From the NCBI GenBank assembly GCA_021775105.1, contig JAJFIJ010000194.1, positions 1 to 38,686 on the forward strand: a stretch of 38,686 bases of DNA, written 5' to 3'. The position numbers and the translations under genes were made by a program. A model generated the notes under the pieces. It was not told where the DNA came from and did no database searches. It worked only from the letters and a program-made list of their open reading frames with translations. This document shows, one piece after another, positions 607 through 22,820 of the stretch (position 1 is the stretch's first letter; every line of letters begins with the position of its first letter). Source of the stretch: Rhodospirillales bacterium (GTDB taxonomy: Bacteria > Pseudomonadota > Alphaproteobacteria > Rhodospirillales > Casp-alpha2).

Positions 607-714
607 CGAACGCTGAATGACGCTGTGTTACTTGATCTATGGTCCGGAATTTTCGCTGTCCATATTCAAGCGTGCGGATCCGGAAATTGTAGAAGAAGAA
701 ACGGCCATAAATCT

Positions 715-1389
715 GTGCTAAGCAGCAACGACCTCGAATTCATCAGGCGATCCGTCCTGTTTCAAGGCATTGATCCAACTGAAAAGGATCGGATGATTGA
801 ACGCTGCCATGTTCATAAAATGGATATCGACAATCCCTTGTTTCGGACCGGGCATGAGGTGTCTCGCGTCTATCTGGTTCTGGATGGCGTGATTGAACTC
901 TATCGCGGGGCTGAAGATGGCAAACATGCAATTCTCGGGCTTCGCGAAATTGGCGAAATCGCCGGAGCCAGTGCAGCGCTTGCCGGAATAAATCATTACA
1001 CGACCGGACAGCCCGTCGGCAGATGTCGCCTTCTGGAGGTTCCCCTTGACGTGTTCCATGAGCTGCTGGATCAGAACCCTGACCTTGCCCGCAAACTGAC
1101 CTCACGGCTGGCCGATAATCTGCAACTGATATCCGAGCATGTAGAACGGCTGCAACTGATGCAGACAACGGAACGTCTCGCATCCTATCTGCTGAGCATG
1201 CTGCCGAATAACGGCAGGTCAACGGAGTTCCTGTTGCCTTGTGACAAGGGCGTGATTGCAACGTACCTGGGCATGGAACGTGAAAGTTTTTCACGGTCTC
1301 TGAAGAAGCTGCGCTCGCTTGGCGTCATCAGCAAGGGGCGGCGCATTCAGATTTCGGATCCGGCAGCTCTGAAAAGTCTCTGTCAGTAA
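715..1389 (+). CDS. Crp/Fnr-family transcriptional regulator, DNR-like
   Basis: 224-aa regulator with a cyclic-nucleotide-binding-like N-terminal domain (about residues 15-125), a dimerisation helix (about 125-150) and a C-terminal winged HTH. The recognition helix ERESFSRSLKKL has the E-x-x-S-R pattern that in FNR-type proteins reads TTGAT half-sites, and a perfect TTGAT-N4-ATCAA box lies upstream. The FNR iron-sulfur cysteine cluster is absent, so it resembles the DNR branch (nitrogen-oxide-responsive regulators) rather than FNR; the effector is not visible from sequence. Only two in-frame starts are possible, GTG 625 and GTG 715. I prefer 715 because it gives the family length (about 225 aa), follows an AGAAGAAG purine run, and lies downstream of the start site predicted from the box. 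The PAS_5 gene follows after 89 bp. Confidence 0.85.
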   Translation: MLSSNDLEFIRRSVLFQGIDPTEKDRMIERCHVHKMDIDNPLFRTGHEVSRVYLVLDGVIELYRGAEDGKHAILGLREIGEIAGASAALAGINHYTTGQPVGRCRLLEVPLDVFHELLDQNPDLARKLTSRLADNLQLISEHVERLQLMQTTERLASYLLSMLPNNGRSTEFLLPCDKGVIATYLGMERESFSRSLKKLRSLGVISKGRRIQISDPAALKSLCQ

Positions 1390-3042: not shown

Positions 3043-3074
3043 GCGGGTGGTGCAAGCGATCTGGAGGATTGGCG

Positions 3075-4637
3075 ATGACAGCTCTACGCAAGGCAGCCCG
3101 CAGAGGCGGACGCAATGCAAGGCACGAATTGCGTGCCGCCCCACTGGCCGATGACAAACGACCAATTCGACCGGGTATGACAGGCGGACGTTATGCGCCG
3201 CTGACAGAGTCAGATATGGATCGTATTAATGAGGCCATTCTGGAAAGTCTGGAAACCATCGGTTTTGCCGACGCTATCCCGTCCTGCGTCGAGCTGGTCA
3301 CCAAAGCAGGTGGTTCTGTAAATGATCAGGGGCGTTTGTTGTTTCCGCGCGGTCTGGTCAAGGACATGCTGGCGGTTGCCAGTCGGCGGTTTCCGATCTA
3401 CGCCCAGGACCCGAAACATGATCTGGAACCCTGGGACAAGAAGGTCTATTTCGGCACCGCTGGCGCCGCCGTACATATGATTGACATTGAAACGGGCGAA
3501 TACACAGACCCCGGCATTGCTGATCTTTATGATATCGCACGGCTGGTTGACCAACTCGACAACATTCACTTTTTCCAGCGCTCGGTCGTCGCACGCGACA
3601 TGGAAACATCGCGCGATCTTGACATCAACACGCTCTATGTCTGCGTTTCCGGCACGACCAAGCATGTTGGCACATCCTGGGTTAAACCGGAATATGTCGA
3701 AGAATCGCTGGAAATGCTTCACATGATTGCAGGAAGTGAAGAGGCCTGGCGCGCCCGGCCCTTCGTCAGCATGTCGAACTGTTTTGTCGTGCCCCCGTTC
3801 AAGTTTGCCGAAGATGCATGCCTCTGTCTGGAGGCTGCGGTAAAGGGTGGTATACCGATCCTGTTGCTGGCTGCCGGACAGGCGGGTGCCACAAGTCCCG
3901 CGGCTCTCGCCGGTGCGGTGATGCAGGAAATGGCCGAAGTCATTGCCGGTATTGTCTATATCAACCTGCTTAGCCCCGGACATCCGGCCATTGCCGGGCC
4001 CTGGCCGTTTGTTTCGGATTTGCGCACCGGCGCGATGAGTGGCGGCAGCGGCGAACAGGCACTTCTCAGTTCCGCCTGCGCGCAGATGTGCGCCTACTAT
4101 GACCTGCCGGGCGGGGTTTGCGCCGGTATGTCGGATTCCAAAATGGTCGATGCCCAGTCGGGTGCGGAAAAAGGCTATACCGAAGCCCTTGTCGGAAATT
4201 CCGGGGCCAATATGATCTACGAATCAGCTGGTATGCACGCCAGCCTGCTGGGCTGCTGCAAGGAAAGTTTCGTTATCGACAACGACACCATTGGCGGCGT
4301 GTTGCGTGCCGTCCGCGGCATTGAGGTCACCGATGAAACGCTTTCTGTCGAAGCCCTGCGTCAGGTTTGTGAACAGGGGCCGGGACATTTTCTTGGCCAT
4401 GACCAGACCATGGATCTTATGGAAACGGAATACGTTTACCCACTCGTCGGTGATCGCACCAGTCCCAAGGAGTGGGTCGAGCAGGGATCGCCCAGTTACA
4501 ACGGCCGCGCGCGGGAGAAAACCACGGAGATTCTGACAACACATTTCCCGGCTCATATTGACCCGGCGCTTGACGAATCCATTCGCGAGCGGTTCGATAT
4601 CAAATTGGACCGGGGCTATATGCTGGCGGGCAGCTAA
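3075..4637 (+). CDS. MttB-superfamily (COG5598) methyltransferase, non-pyrrolysine
   Basis: 520-aa protein of the trimethylamine methyltransferase superfamily. Characterised non-pyrrolysine members take a methyl group from quaternary amines (glycine betaine, proline betaine, carnitine) and pass it to a corrinoid protein. Family segments seen include the N-terminal RPGMTGGRYAPLTESD, the central YFGTAGAAVHMIDIETGEY, and GNSGANMIYESAGMHASLLG near residue 380. There is no in-frame amber codon, so pyrrolysine is not used. ATG 3075 is chosen over the TTG six bases upstream because GGAGG (3063-3067) is ideally spaced from it. It is 15 bp upstream of a flavin/folate dehydrogenase-like gene, evidently one operon. 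No corrinoid protein or RamA-like activator is encoded in the window, so the methyl acceptor is uncertain; the substrate is inferred to be a quaternary amine. Confidence 0.88.
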   Translation: MTALRKAARRGGRNARHELRAAPLADDKRPIRPGMTGGRYAPLTESDMDRINEAILESLETIGFADAIPSCVELVTKAGGSVNDQGRLLFPRGLVKDMLAVASRRFPIYAQDPKHDLEPWDKKVYFGTAGAAVHMIDIETGEYTDPGIADLYDIARLVDQLDNIHFFQRSVVARDMETSRDLDINTLYVCVSGTTKHVGTSWVKPEYVEESLEMLHMIAGSEEAWRARPFVSMSNCFVVPPFKFAEDACLCLEAAVKGGIPILLLAAGQAGATSPAALAGAVMQEMAEVIAGIVYINLLSPGHPAIAGPWPFVSDLRTGAMSGGSGEQALLSSACAQMCAYYDLPGGVCAGMSDSKMVDAQSGAEKGYTEALVGNSGANMIYESAGMHASLLGCCKESFVIDNDTIGGVLRAVRGIEVTDETLSVEALRQVCEQGPGHFLGHDQTMDLMETEYVYPLVGDRTSPKEWVEQGSPSYNGRAREKTTEILTTHFPAHIDPALDESIRERFDIKLDRGYMLAGS

Positions 4638-18662: not shown

Positions 18663-19850
18663 TCAAAGAATTTCGCGGTTTTTCAGGTCTTCAATTTCGG
18701 CTGCGGAAAACCCGAATTCCTGCAGCACCTCATCGGTATGTTCACCCCGTTCCGGGGTCGGGATACCGGTCCGGGGTTTGTAGCGGCTCAGGTTGACCGC
18801 CTGGCCAACCAGATTCATGTCGCCGAGCTCGGGGTGTGTAACGGGGTGTTCCATCCCCAGATGCCTGACCTGCGGATCAGCGAACATCTCATCAATGGCA
18901 TAGATCGGTCCGCAGGGCACACCGATACCTGATAACAGGTCGATCCACTCGGCAGAGGTGCGGGTTAACGTCACCGCCTCAATTGACGCATTGACCGCAT
19001 CGCGGTTTTTCGAACGCAGCTCTCCTGTAGCAAAATCAGGATTGTCTTTCATGCCCGGTGCATCAAGGGCGTCACACAGCCTGATCCAGATGGCGTCCCC
19101 CGTGGCGGCGATATTGATGTAGCCGTCGCTGGTTTTGAACACACCGGTCGGAATACTGGTCGGATGATTGTTCCCGGCCTGCGGCGCGACCTCTCCCTTG
19201 ACCAGCCAGCGCGCTGCCTGAAAATCCAGCATCGCAATCTGCGACTGCAACAACGATGTCTGCACCCATTGCCCTTGACCGGATTTTTCACGTTCCAGCA
19301 AGGCAACAAAAATGCCCATCGCGCAATACATGCCCGCCGTCAGGTCGGCAATGGGGATGCCCGCCCGCACCGGCCCCTGCCCCGGCAATCCGGTGACCGA
19401 CATGACCCCGCCCATACCCTGGGCGATCTGGTCGAACCCCGGCCGACGCGCATAAGGTCCGTCCTGTCCGAAGCCCGAAATGCTGGCGAGAATAATTTTC
19501 GGATTAACCGCTTTCAGCGATTCGTAATCAATGCCAAGGCGGTCTTTAACGTCGGGGCGAAAATTTTCGACAACCACGTCCGCCTGTTTGACCATCCGCA
19601 TCAGCGCGGCAATTCCGTCCGGGTCTTTCATGTTCAGCGTCATACCGCGCTTGTTGCGGTGAATGTTCTGGAAATCCGGACCGGACCGTGCCCCACCCAT
19701 GCCCTTCGACGGGTCAATCGCTTCGGGGGCCTCAATCTTGATGACGTTGGCCCCCCAGTCAGCCAATTGGCGAACCGCCGTCGGACCGGACCGCACGCGG
19801 GTCAGGTCAAGCACGGTAAAATGAGAGAGCGGTCCCTGATAATCAGACAT
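18663..19850 (-). CDS. CaiB/BaiF family (class III) CoA-transferase
   Basis: 395-aa CoA-transferase family III enzyme, which moves CoA between carboxylic acids through an aspartyl-CoA intermediate. Conserved features: LSHFTVLDLTRVRSGPTAVR at the N-terminus, ADWGANVIKIEAPEAID, NKRGMTLNMKDPDG, VVENFRPDVKDRLG, and the IPIADLTAGMYCAMG segment with the expected catalytic Asp. The C-terminal GVPCGPIYAIDEMFADPQV is also typical. It starts at ATG 19848-19850; the upstream extension in frame lacks support. A TGTATACA palindrome lies 25 bp upstream, and further upstream is copy A of the 108-bp CRP-site/small-RNA element. No dedicated pathway genes are adjacent, so the acid substrate cannot be stated. 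Confidence 0.9.
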   Translation of the reverse strand: MSDYQGPLSHFTVLDLTRVRSGPTAVRQLADWGANVIKIEAPEAIDPSKGMGGARSGPDFQNIHRNKRGMTLNMKDPDGIAALMRMVKQADVVVENFRPDVKDRLGIDYESLKAVNPKIILASISGFGQDGPYARRPGFDQIAQGMGGVMSVTGLPGQGPVRAGIPIADLTAGMYCAMGIFVALLEREKSGQGQWVQTSLLQSQIAMLDFQAARWLVKGEVAPQAGNNHPTSIPTGVFKTSDGYINIAATGDAIWIRLCDALDAPGMKDNPDFATGELRSKNRDAVNASIEAVTLTRTSAEWIDLLSGIGVPCGPIYAIDEMFADPQVRHLGMEHPVTHPELGDMNLVGQAVNLSRYKPRTGIPTPERGEHTDEVLQEFGFSAAEIEDLKNREIL

Positions 19851-19874
19851 GGCAAAGTTCCCGAACAAGCAAAA

Positions 19875-19882
19875 TGTATACA
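19875..19882. promoter_or_regulatory. TGTATACA palindrome, possible GntR-type operator
   Basis: A self-complementary TGTATACA within ATTGTATACA (minus strand) lies 25 bp upstream of the CoA-transferase start. The same ATTGTATACA occurs upstream of the EamA gene at 32223. GntR-family regulators commonly use such TTGTATACAA-like operators; no GntR gene is in the window. Confidence 0.35.
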
Positions 19883-19987
19883 ATCGGAGGAGCCTATCAC
19901 GAGACCTTCACGCCGACAATTGGCCGGGCAGGCACATCACTGTGGATAATATAGTCTGGAATACCAAACTGAAGACCGTCTGCGGGC

Positions 19988-20043
19988 AAAAAAATACCGG
20001 GCCGCCAGTTCGGGGCCCGGTGAAGGAGAAAGTGTGAATATCA
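19988..20043 (-). ncRNA. Predicted small RNA, copy A, with intrinsic terminator
   Basis: About 56 nt predicted from promoter spacing to the end of a 7-T run. The leader carries TTTCTCCTTCACC, complementary to a Shine-Dalgarno sequence, followed by a perfect terminator stem ACCGGGCC / GGCCCGGT (loop 10) and TATTTTTTT. It belongs to a 108-bp element (19985-20092) found three times with no length change. It lies between the PAS-HD-GYP gene (stop 20139) and the CoA-transferase gene (start 19850). It may be a trans-acting RNA or an attenuated leader of the CoA-transferase gene; it could also terminate the upstream HD-GYP transcript. Confidence 0.6.
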
Positions 20044-20049
20044 AGGATC

Positions 20050-20092
20050 AATATAGCGATCACCGTATGCGCTGACAGTGATGGAGGTCACA
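20050..20092 (-). promoter_or_regulatory. CRP-like site and promoter of small RNA copy A
   Basis: Read on the minus strand: operator TGTGA-CCTCCA-TCACT (palindrome 20078-20091, centre -41.5 from the predicted start), -35 CTGTCA (20078-20073), 17-bp spacer, -10 TATATT (20055-20050). The spacer and operator centre differ from copies B and C while the boxes are identical, which argues for selection on the promoter itself. Confidence 0.65.
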
Positions 20093-20138
20093 TGGGGAGA
20101 ATTAAAATTATCGCAGCGGTTTGACGGTGAGACGCCGC

Positions 20139-21149
20139 TCAGGCGGCTGCCCCGAATTCCTTACCGGCCAATTGCCCGCTGGCCACCAGATCTCTCGCCG
20201 CACTTAGTGCACCTTCATGAAACTTGTGGGCGTTCTCATTCATGATCGTGATGGCCTCCTCAAACGTATTGCTTTTGCGATACGGCCGGACCCCGGCAAT
20301 GGCCTCAAGGTTGTCAGCGACACAGACAATGGCGGCTTCCAGGGGGATGTCATTTTCCTTTAACCCGGACGGATACCCCGACCCGTCCCGGTGTTCGTGA
20401 TGATGCTTGACAATATTCATCACAACATCGCCGTATCCAACATCGGCGAGAATATCAAATCCAATTTCAGGGTGGCGTCTGACAAACGCCCATTCGTGCT
20501 CGTCCAGCTTGCCGGGTTTGGTCAGAATTTCAATTGGCACGGCAACCTTGCCGATATCGTGCATTCCCGCCCCAAGACCGATCAGTTCCACCATATCCCA
20601 GCCCAGCTGAAGGGTTTTTGAAATCTCCATGGAAATGAACGCCGTCCGGGACATGTGGTTTTGCGTATAGGGGTCGCGCTGCTCAATCGCACGTCCGAGC
20701 GCCGCCGAGGTCTTGCGGTACAGACTGGCTTCAAGGCGTTGGTGATTTTCAAGCGGAGTCCTGTCGATAAATTCGGCCAACCGGTATGTCTCACCATCTA
20801 TAATGAACAGGCGCGGCGATACCATCACATCTTTCTCTGCACCGGATTTGCTAAGCAGACGCAAGGCATATCTTTCCGGCACATCCGATCCGAATTGCCA
20901 GCGCAACAGATCATGGTCTTCGGCAATCGACAGATCAAATGCGCTCATGCCATATAATTCATCCCGGTCGTAGCCGATCAGATCAATGAATTCATTATTT
21001 GCAGCGATGACCGCACCGTCCCGGGTGACGGCAAAGGCCCCCATAATGAAGGGCAGGCAATTCGCCACACACTCGATACCGCCGCAGTCAAATACATGCT
21101 TGAGAAATTTGTCAAATTCCTGATGAAAGCTGTGAATCAGATCGGTCAT
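20139..21149 (-). CDS. PAS-HD-GYP protein, probable c-di-GMP phosphodiesterase
   Basis: 336-aa cytoplasmic signalling protein. A PAS domain occupies about residues 30-130 (AVTRDGAVIAANNEFIDLIG is its first strand-helix), followed by an HD-GYP domain (about 145-325). Motifs of a metal-binding HD-GYP enzyme are present: GAGMHDIGKVAVP, RRHPEIGFDIL, HHHEHRDGSGYPSGL (the GYP signature) and VADNLEAIAGVRPYR. This class hydrolyses c-di-GMP to GMP or pGpG, lowering biofilm and adhesin output. There are no membrane segments. ATG 21149 has GAGG seven bases upstream. Copies B (upstream) and A (downstream) of the 108-bp element flank it, so its expression may respond to the same CRP-like signal. Its PAS input is unidentified. 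Confidence 0.9.
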   Translation of the reverse strand: MTDLIHSFHQEFDKFLKHVFDCGGIECVANCLPFIMGAFAVTRDGAVIAANNEFIDLIGYDRDELYGMSAFDLSIAEDHDLLRWQFGSDVPERYALRLLSKSGAEKDVMVSPRLFIIDGETYRLAEFIDRTPLENHQRLEASLYRKTSAALGRAIEQRDPYTQNHMSRTAFISMEISKTLQLGWDMVELIGLGAGMHDIGKVAVPIEILTKPGKLDEHEWAFVRRHPEIGFDILADVGYGDVVMNIVKHHHEHRDGSGYPSGLKENDIPLEAAIVCVADNLEAIAGVRPYRKSNTFEEAITIMNENAHKFHEGALSAARDLVASGQLAGKEFGAAA

Positions 21150-21456
21150 GCTTGAACCTCATTATTGCCTGACGCCGCCAACTTACTCTGATCGAGCAAC
21201 ATTTGCCCCTGCCAGACCGGGTTACCCCCCCCTGATTTCTCTATCGCAGCCTTCCTATTATTATTAAATTTTTTTCAACCATAACTTACTGACACCATGC
21301 TGTCTTGATAAATATTATAAATAGTTGTTTTTTAATTTATCAGATCAATTTTAAACGACATACACATTCACTCTGTCGATCAAACTGACCGCAGATTTCC
21401 CTGGCTCACCGGGCGAATAACCTGATCCGAATGCGATCGAGGTTTGCTTGCGCGCA
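21150..21456. other. Intergenic region upstream of the PAS-HD-GYP gene
   Basis: About 300 bases without a credible gene. The middle (about 21250-21360) is strongly AT-rich with several TTTTTT runs and would suit a promoter for the PAS-HD-GYP gene; I could not place a convincing -35/-10 pair. The far end abuts copy B of the 108-bp element. Confidence 0.5.
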
Positions 21457-21459
21457 GGC

Positions 21460-21515
21460 AAAAAAATACCGGGCCGCCAATTCGGGGCCCGGTGAAGGAG
21501 GGATTGTGAATATCA
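21460..21515 (-). ncRNA. Predicted small RNA, copy B, with intrinsic terminator
   Basis: About 56 nt, same organisation as copy A: a leader with ATCCCTCCTTCACC (anti-Shine-Dalgarno), a perfect terminator stem ACCGGGCC / GGCCCGGT (21468-21475 with 21486-21493), then seven Ts. Part of the 108-bp element at 21457-21564. It lies between the EamA gene (stop 21602) and the PAS-HD-GYP gene (start 21149), about 310 bp from the latter. Confidence 0.6.
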
Positions 21516-21521
21516 AGGATG

Positions 21522-21564
21522 AATATAGCTAACCCTCCACGTTCTGACAGTGACGGCGATCACA
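21522..21564 (-). promoter_or_regulatory. CRP-like site and promoter of small RNA copy B
   Basis: Read on the minus strand: operator TGTGA-TCGCCG-TCACT (palindrome 21550-21563), -35 CTGTCA (21550-21545), 17-bp spacer, -10 TATATT (21527-21522). The operator centre is at -41.5, the standard class II activator position. Confidence 0.65.
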
Positions 21565-21601
21565 GAGCCCCGAATTTAATTGGAAAAGTCACGTGTCGGT
21601 G

Positions 21602-22555
21602 TCATTGGGGTTTTTCTGCGGTCTCGGGCCGCGGGCCGATACGGAAATAACCGGCTGCGGTAATCCGGCTGCGGGTGCGCAGGACGGGTGTGTTTTCCGA
21701 CGTATTCTGTCGGCTTTCCCGAACAACAATATAGACCCCGCTGGCGATGATGACCCCGACCCCCATGAGTGTTTGCAGGTCTGCAGTTTCGCCGAAAAAC
21801 AATGCCCCATAGGCCAGCGCCCAGAGAATTTGTGAATACTGCATTGGTGCAACCACAGCGGCTTCACCGGATTTATAGGCGGCGATCATGCAGACCATTG
21901 CCACAAATGCCAACACCGCCAATGCCGCTACGGCGCCAAGATCACCGACCTCCATCGGTTTGTAAAAAAACGGCATCAGCGCTCCCATGATCAGGAAATT
22001 CGCCAGCAAGGGAAACAGCAGCAGAACAACGTCACGTTCTTCGCGACCAATCCGGCGCACAATAATGGACGCCAGCGCTGAACAGAATGCGCCCGCGAGC
22101 GCCGCATAATGGCCGAGCGTCAAAGGCGTGGAATCAGGGCGCAACACGATCAGAACCCCGATCAGGCCGACTGCCACCGCGCCGCCACGATGCAGGCCAA
22201 CCCGTTCGCCAAGCACCGGGATCGACAACAGGGTGATAATCAGCGGCACGGTAAAAAGCATGGCATAGGTCTGGGTCAGGGGCAGAACTGAAAATGCGTA
22301 AAAATTGCTGGCGGTGGAGATCACCAGCGCAAGGGTCCGGAGCGCTACCCACCACGGATGACGCGGGTGCAGGTTCGCCGCGCTCGGGTCACTGACCAGC
22401 TTGATGGAAACCAGCGGGAACCCGAACAGGACGGTGAAAAATACGATCTGAAACGGCGTATAGGTGGCACCCAGATATTTCACCAGCACGTCATGAGTGG
22501 CAAAAATACCGAAGGCCAGAAGACCCAGCAGCGCACCTTTGGTATTGGGATTCAT
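21602..22555 (-). CDS. EamA-family (DMT superfamily) transporter 1
   Basis: 317-aa inner-membrane protein with about ten hydrophobic segments arranged as two EamA repeats, the drug/metabolite exporter fold. The N-terminal segment GALLGLLAFGIFATHDVLVK and the end of the second repeat (GEAAVVAPMQYSQILWALAY, FGETADLQTLMGVGVIIASG) are typical. A charged cytoplasmic tail of about 35 residues follows the last membrane helix. ATG 22553-22555 starts just before the first helix; an in-frame extension of 44 residues to 22687 is unsupported. The substrate cannot be deduced. It sits between copies C (upstream) and B (downstream) of the 108-bp element, and it resembles the third EamA gene of this window more than the second. 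Confidence 0.88.
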   Translation of the reverse strand: MNPNTKGALLGLLAFGIFATHDVLVKYLGATYTPFQIVFFTVLFGFPLVSIKLVSDPSAANLHPRHPWWVALRTLALVISTASNFYAFSVLPLTQTYAMLFTVPLIITLLSIPVLGERVGLHRGGAVAVGLIGVLIVLRPDSTPLTLGHYAALAGAFCSALASIIVRRIGREERDVVLLLFPLLANFLIMGALMPFFYKPMEVGDLGAVAALAVLAFVAMVCMIAAYKSGEAAVVAPMQYSQILWALAYGALFFGETADLQTLMGVGVIIASGVYIVVRESRQNTSENTPVLRTRSRITAAGYFRIGPRPETAEKPQ

Positions 22556-22715
22556 AAACCAACCCGTCCCGGTTCCAGTTGACGATGCCGGATAAGATAC
22601 AAACCCGGCGGACAGGGCAAGTGTCCCGGCCATGCTATTTTTACAGGCCTGCCTCACACCTGCCAAGCCCGCCCGGTTGGCGCACACTGCGAAAGCATCC
22701 CGCTGACCTCACGGC

Positions 22716-22771
22716 AAAAAAATACCGGGCCGCCAGTTAGGGACCCGGTGAAGGAGAGAGTGTGAATATCA
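22716..22771 (-). ncRNA. Predicted small RNA, copy C, with weakened terminator stem
   Basis: About 56 nt, same organisation as copies A and B: a leader with CTCTCTCCTTCACC, then the hairpin and seven Ts. In this copy the stem is interrupted: ACCGGG / CCCGGT pairs, the seventh pair is mismatched (C opposite A) and the eighth is restored. Part of the 108-bp element at 22713-22820, upstream of the EamA gene that starts at 22555. The gene on its other side is transcribed away from it, so here the hairpin is not needed as a terminator for any upstream gene. Confidence 0.55.
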
Positions 22772-22777
22772 AGGATG

Positions 22778-22820
22778 AATATAGGTAACCCTCCACATTC
22801 TGACAGTGACGGCGATCACA
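22778..22820 (-). promoter_or_regulatory. CRP-like site and promoter of small RNA copy C
   Basis: Read on the minus strand: operator TGTGA-TCGCCG-TCACT (palindrome 22806-22819), -35 CTGTCA (22806-22801), 17-bp spacer, -10 TATATT (22783-22778), operator centre at -41.5. Identical boxes to copies A and B. Confidence 0.65.

Follow-up and report, generated by a model that had tools for sequence, protein, structure and literature searches.

Riboregulation under the control of CRP is well described in gamma-proteobacteria, and no alphaproteobacterial case was found in the open-licence literature searched. CyaR (RyeE), an enterobacterial small RNA (sRNA), is CRP-dependent and pairs at Shine-Dalgarno (SD) sequences, as in ompX (PMC11795201). 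The alphaR8 sRNAs (SuhB/MmgR, SisA-D; RF00519) exist as sibling copies with a 10-mer anti-SD core, and the promoters of the Caulobacter siblings share no motif (PMC12559287). The alphar14 or cuckoo RNAs (NfeR1) direct an anti-SD motif against ABC-transporter and other mRNAs and contain three hairpins, each with CCUCCUCCC; LsrB and NtrC act as regulators of NfeR1 (PMC10746234). Here we describe an element from a Rhodospirillales bacterium (assembly GCA_021775105.1, contig JAJFIJ010000194.1, positions 1 to 38,686; this whole stretch of 38,686 nucleotides is called the window), in which a 108-nt unit is present three times and probably encodes an sRNA family that keeps ribosomes from binding mRNAs for nutrient uptake in a group of uncultured marine-type Alphaproteobacteria.

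Compared with CyaR, the predicted RNA would share CRP-type control, pairing at SD sequences, an intrinsic terminator and Hfq (the Hfq dependence is known for CyaR), but it shows no homology in the Rfam scans, is only about 56 nt long with one hairpin, has three siblings, comes from another bacterial class and has candidate targets. CyaR was absent both from the gathering-score matches of the window and from the matches with E <= 10 in the 3-kb region around the copies. With alphaR8 it has in common the alphaproteobacterial host, the sibling copies and an unpaired anti-SD stretch before the terminator but, unlike the promoters of the Caulobacter siblings, those of all three copies carry a CRP-type operator. 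An anti-SD motif is also the likeness to the cuckoo RNAs, from which the element differs by its single hairpin (the terminator), by its CUCUCCUUC stretch and by having no Rfam match; identity with them was rejected since the CCUCCUCCC motif is absent and there is one hairpin instead of three. In general, Rfam at gathering score gave no family for the element in the window, where the only match was an unrelated PYLIS_3, and the weak Pseudomon-1/ErsA and suhB matches in the 3-kb region at E <= 10 are explained by a terminator plus a pyrimidine stretch. The sRNA family matches no Rfam family at cutoff and is previously uncatalogued.

The repeat finder located the three copies in one orientation and ungapped, at coordinates identical to those of an earlier sequence-only reading of this DNA (Table 1). 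The pairwise identity of the copies is 84-94%, with 7 differences per 108 positions between B and C, 17 between A and B and 18 between A and C. It turned out that the 5-Mb assembly (90% complete, 389 contigs) holds only these three copies in a whole-genome search. On the minus strand, each copy contains TGTGA-N6-TCACT, CTGTCA-17-TATATT, CTCCTTC and a GC hairpin with a run of seven Ts after it, and the perfect TGTGA-N6-TCAC occurs nowhere else in the whole window. The operator arms, the -35 and the -10 together make up 20 bases, and the 21 variable positions among the copies all fall outside them (P ~0.008 under random placement), a pattern of selection on promoter boxes like that proposed in the earlier reading. 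The first -10 base is 29 bp downstream of the operator centre. This geometry fits the proposed operator position of about -41.5 if transcription starts 7 nt past the -10, the start site itself being a prediction. The earlier start and 56-nt length fit the sequence: when genera are compared, the conserved part sets in at GATATTCAC, about 1 base past the predicted start.

To keep the operator test independent, a covariance model (R2) was built from the transcript alone, with the operator omitted, and searched against 316 other genomes of the order (E <= 1e-4). Homologues were found in 17 other genomes, all of the same GTDB family and with one copy each, while a direct DNA search had given single matches in five other genomes of this family. 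The operator TGTGA-N6-TCAC is present in all the homologues (17 of 17), with 8 or 9 of the 9 fixed bases, and the distance from operator start to -10 start is 37 bp throughout (36 in G006); this spacing is essentially constant (37 bp) in 23 elements. Two weaker matches, G022 and G028, also have the operator. The conservation is 1.00 and 0.97 in the operator arms, 0.62 in the six central bases, 0.51 in the 21-bp spacer and 0.42-0.55 in the flanks. The sequence-only reading had made its case depend on homologues conserving -35, -10 and operator; the operator, the -10 and the spacing are kept in all 17, with TATATT, TATGGT, GATAAT and GATACT as -10 variants, and the reading withstood this test, although the -35 is not conserved. 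The hexamer CTGTCA, although common to the three copies, is found in the window genome only, and the equivalent bases of relatives read for example CTGCGC, CACAGC or CATCGT. In class II promoters the activator overlaps the -35, so an unconserved -35 is what would be expected here.

At the same threshold, the sole R2 match outside the family (G217) lacks the operator. Of the matches outside the family (G217, G044, G309 and others, E from 2e-5 to 0.009), those whose sequences were read have no operator and were taken as chance or terminator matches. An earlier model (R1) from 188-nt flanked copies had a poor structure and was set aside, and a model including the operator (R3) recovered weaker relatives across the family and order, in which the operator is not independent evidence. 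Since a class-wide sample gave one further match in 384 genomes (E <= 0.01), the family, as far as it is recognisable, hardly extends beyond this order. The core is present in named records of marine or Rhodospirillales metagenome-assembled genomes (MAGs), MarineAlpha3_Bin3 and UBA4468 among them. Besides, G079 (L121/L163) and related g6 genomes contain diverged relatives in which operator and terminator are kept and CTCCTTC is replaced (CTTACCTGATCCACACCGGG); the G079 relative does not adjoin a CoA-transferase gene, and this type is possibly a paralogue with another seed.

In the alignment, the transcript consists of an abrupt onset of conservation at GATATTCAC (the predicted start), a length-variable linker, CTCTCCTTC and the terminator. 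CTCCTTC is at least 90% conserved at most columns and unpaired in the folds. The terminator is the sole conserved structure within the transcript. Its hairpin with the T-run folds 2.9-3.4 standard deviations better than shuffled sequence, and 94.9% of cells in the stem are paired across the alignment. Covariation was found in the stem, where both sides differ in 11 cells, against 4.2 in shuffles, and none of the 500 shuffles reached this value. In 7 sequences G-C replaces an A-U pair, and other paired changes occur as well; related sequences may beat shuffles without structure, but slid-alignment controls are far lower too (pairing <= 56%). The complementary strand was also considered as a small open reading frame (SD, GTG and AAT ATC) and rejected, for the codons past ATC are unconserved and the spacing is variable.

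Taken together, we put the probability at roughly 0.8 that each copy is a free-standing gene for a trans-acting sRNA of the Hfq type, some 50-56 nt long and activated by CRP; this RNA would occlude GAAGGAGA SD sequences. In the proposed mechanism, a CRP-type activator would bind TGTGA-N6-TCAC[T/A] centred near -41.5 and give class II activation of a weak promoter with a good -10 and no conserved -35. The RNA of 50-56 nt would start at GAUAUUCAC, expose the unpaired CUCUCCUUC stretch and end in the intrinsic terminator with its U-tail. With Hfq, CUCUCCUUC would then pair with the GAAGGAGA SD sequences of target mRNAs and translation would be blocked, and copies B and C, as duplicates of A, may raise the dosage or broaden the targets through small differences adjacent to the seed. 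Hfq is encoded in 7 of 8 genomes, and the genome without a match is 67% complete.

As to putative targets, the own genome has 20 occurrences of GAAGGAGA-N3-9-ATG and 2 of the reversed control. Three genes have a GAAGGAGA SD in 5 of the 6 genomes compared, encoding a family-5 solute-binding protein and proteins which we take, from their sequences, to be FlgE (flagellar hook) and ribosomal protein S18. The solute-binding protein gene (SBP_bac_5, PF00496) with this SD spans two genera, and its predicted pairing with copy C (-24.9 kcal/mol) is stronger than any other duplex found in the own genome. Among the candidate targets, this family-5 solute-binding protein, which belongs to a peptide-type ABC transporter, ranks first; it is a lead and not proof, because GAAGGAGA itself is a good ribosome site.

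Several observations weigh against this interpretation. GAAGGAGA is near the consensus SD, and ribosome binding alone may explain why it recurs ahead of orthologous genes; S18 and FlgE recur as often as the solute-binding protein, whose duplex in G031 is weak (-11.7 kcal/mol). The nearly invariant GATATTCAC 5' end has no account in the proposed mechanism. Finally, the genome encodes ten CRP/FNR paralogues (over the Pfam cut-off) and thus has several candidate regulators.

The last point is the basis of the alternative that survives best, in which the sRNA is right and the regulator is another CRP/FNR paralogue of related specificity. For example, a CRP/FNR-family protein in the window (625-1389, plus strand) has RESFSR at the recognition helix, and one paralogue adjoins an adenylate-cyclase-like gene. 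However, the CRP orthologue at C180 has the recognition helix STTRETVARV, the closest to that of E. coli CRP, with which it aligns over RETVGR. Orthologues of this protein exist at 60-65% identity in most relatives checked, and the helix is identical in every relative where it was read (12 genomes), so that the RETVAR helix is invariant across the genera carrying the sRNA. Sites of the form TGTGAN6TCACW number 150 compared with 24 for the reversed control (about six-fold; 8 genomes, palindromic sites counted on both strands). The C180 CRP is the putative activator at the operators of the sRNA copies, and control by another paralogue is less likely. In G031, the CRP orthologue (L322, G031:C28:47572-48267) has two in-frame stops in the MAG, which may be an assembly error; the sRNA and operator are intact there.

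The genomic position was relevant to the second alternative, a leader with an attenuator terminator, in which CRP-driven transcription would read through under some condition into the following gene. Every copy indeed lies upstream of a co-directional gene, namely CoA-transferase family III for copy A, PAS-HD-GYP for copy B and EamA for copy C. The CoA-transferase gene is the next co-directional gene or operon in nearly all relatives as well, 100-450 nt away in many. For this reason copy A appears to occupy the ancestral site, with B and C as later duplicates in this lineage. But a convergent amidohydrolase gene runs up to the terminator in three genomes (G006, G018, G025), where the CoA-transferase gene is 1.8 kb off, so a co-directional gene does not directly follow in all members. 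Because a convergent gene intervenes and the RNA is still conserved, a leader role for the CoA-transferase gene is very unlikely in these three genomes, although partial read-through may happen in the others. The genes after the three copies are mutually unrelated, and no conserved alternative (anti-terminator) pairing was predicted in the transcript alignment. The sequence-only reading had left open a CRP-controlled sRNA family or a set of leaders with a terminator; the conserved operator, -10 and spacing speak for the former, and we consider the latter improbable.

The third alternative, a divergent branch of the alphaR8 (SuhB/MmgR) family, draws on a full-length match of copy B to RF00519 and on the several siblings per genome and anti-SD core that alphaR8 also has. 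That match is sub-threshold (20.6 bits, E = 0.39, against a cut-off of 41 bits), the conserved core here is CUCUCCUUC instead of UUUCCUCCCU, and it lacks the weak hairpin found 5' of the alphaR8 core. Moreover, these genomes have alphaR8 genes over or near threshold with CUUGGAYGUUUCCUCCC at other loci, and the ones displayed have no operator, which makes this origin quite improbable. A small repeat or mobile element, similar to a miniature inverted-repeat transposable element (MITE) or a repetitive extragenic palindromic (REP) sequence and resembling promoter plus terminator by chance, might explain why three copies are scattered over adjacent intergenic regions, but is scarcely credible given that 5 Mb contain only three copies, that relatives have single copies at the orthologous position, that the 108 bp lack terminal inverted repeats and that the promoter boxes show a selection pattern.

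With the CRP-activated sRNA as the preferred explanation, operator, promoter and RNA are inherited as one unit across genera together with a CRP of invariant helix, which makes the system open to direct tests. By triplication, this lineage has in effect varied the dosage of sibling sRNAs in a natural experiment; why such siblings are retained is described as not always understood (PMC12559287).

Table 1. Features of the triplicated element and its conserved neighbour (window coordinates)
Feature	Position	Strand	Basis
Copy A, predicted sRNA unit, putatively ancestral position, upstream of CoA-transferase gene	19985..20092	-	repeat finding; synteny with relatives
Copy A CRP-type operator TGTGACCTCCATCACT	20077..20092	-	motif in sequence
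Copy A -10 hexamer TATATT	20050..20055	-	
Copy A predicted transcript, ~56 nt	19988..20043	-	prediction based on -10 and terminator; conservation sets in at GATATTCAC
Copy A anti-SD CTCCTTC	20022..20028	-	
Copy A intrinsic terminator	19988..20021	-	folding, covariation
Copy B, predicted sRNA unit	21457..21564	-	repeat finding
Copy B CRP-type operator TGTGATCGCCGTCACT	21549..21564	-	
Copy B -10 hexamer TATATT	21522..21527	-	
Copy B predicted transcript, ~56 nt	21460..21515	-	predicted; anti-SD 21494-21500
Copy C, predicted sRNA unit	22713..22820	-	repeat finding
Copy C CRP-type operator TGTGATCGCCGTCACT	22805..22820	-	
Copy C -10 hexamer TATATT	22778..22783	-	
Copy C predicted transcript, ~56 nt	22716..22771	-	predicted; anti-SD 22750-22756
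CoA-transferase family III gene, with conserved position downstream of the sRNA among relatives	18663..19883	-	Pfam PF02515, 395.7 bits; synteny

Further loci with a similar arrangement were observed. When the perfect CRP sites of the own genome were read, one of them pointed to L337, the minus strand of which (G000:C212, operator 3043-3058) contains a CRP-type operator, a CATTAT -10-like hexamer at 37 bp, CTCCCTTCCCTCAAGAGCAC and a strong terminator, and is a candidate for a second CRP-driven anti-SD sRNA of other sequence in the same genome; cores similar to that of L337 exist in L162 (G102) and L173 (G056). A third candidate kind of RNA, present in the genomes G006, G008, G020 and G080, was seen in the loci L174, L182, L183 and L184, with TGTGA/AGTGA-N6-TCAC, a terminator and the core CTCCCTGTTAAACT(T)CGCCGG (CTCCCTGTCTAACTCGCCGG in L183), and some of these give weak SorX or suhB scores. 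The chances seem to us evenly balanced that the order possesses a set of CRP class II-driven anti-SD sRNAs, with at least two other kinds (CUCCCUUCCCU-AAGAGCAC and CUCCCUGUUAAACU-CGCCGG) behind the same operator type. If true, CRP would act on nutrient uptake through a layer of parallel small RNAs, and the triplication would be a dosage change therein.

The PYLIS_3 match in the window (4128-4227, plus strand; 46.6 bits) is located inside an MttB-like open reading frame (3069-4637), which is probably a non-pyrrolysine MttB homologue, because the frame is open throughout with no in-frame amber codon.

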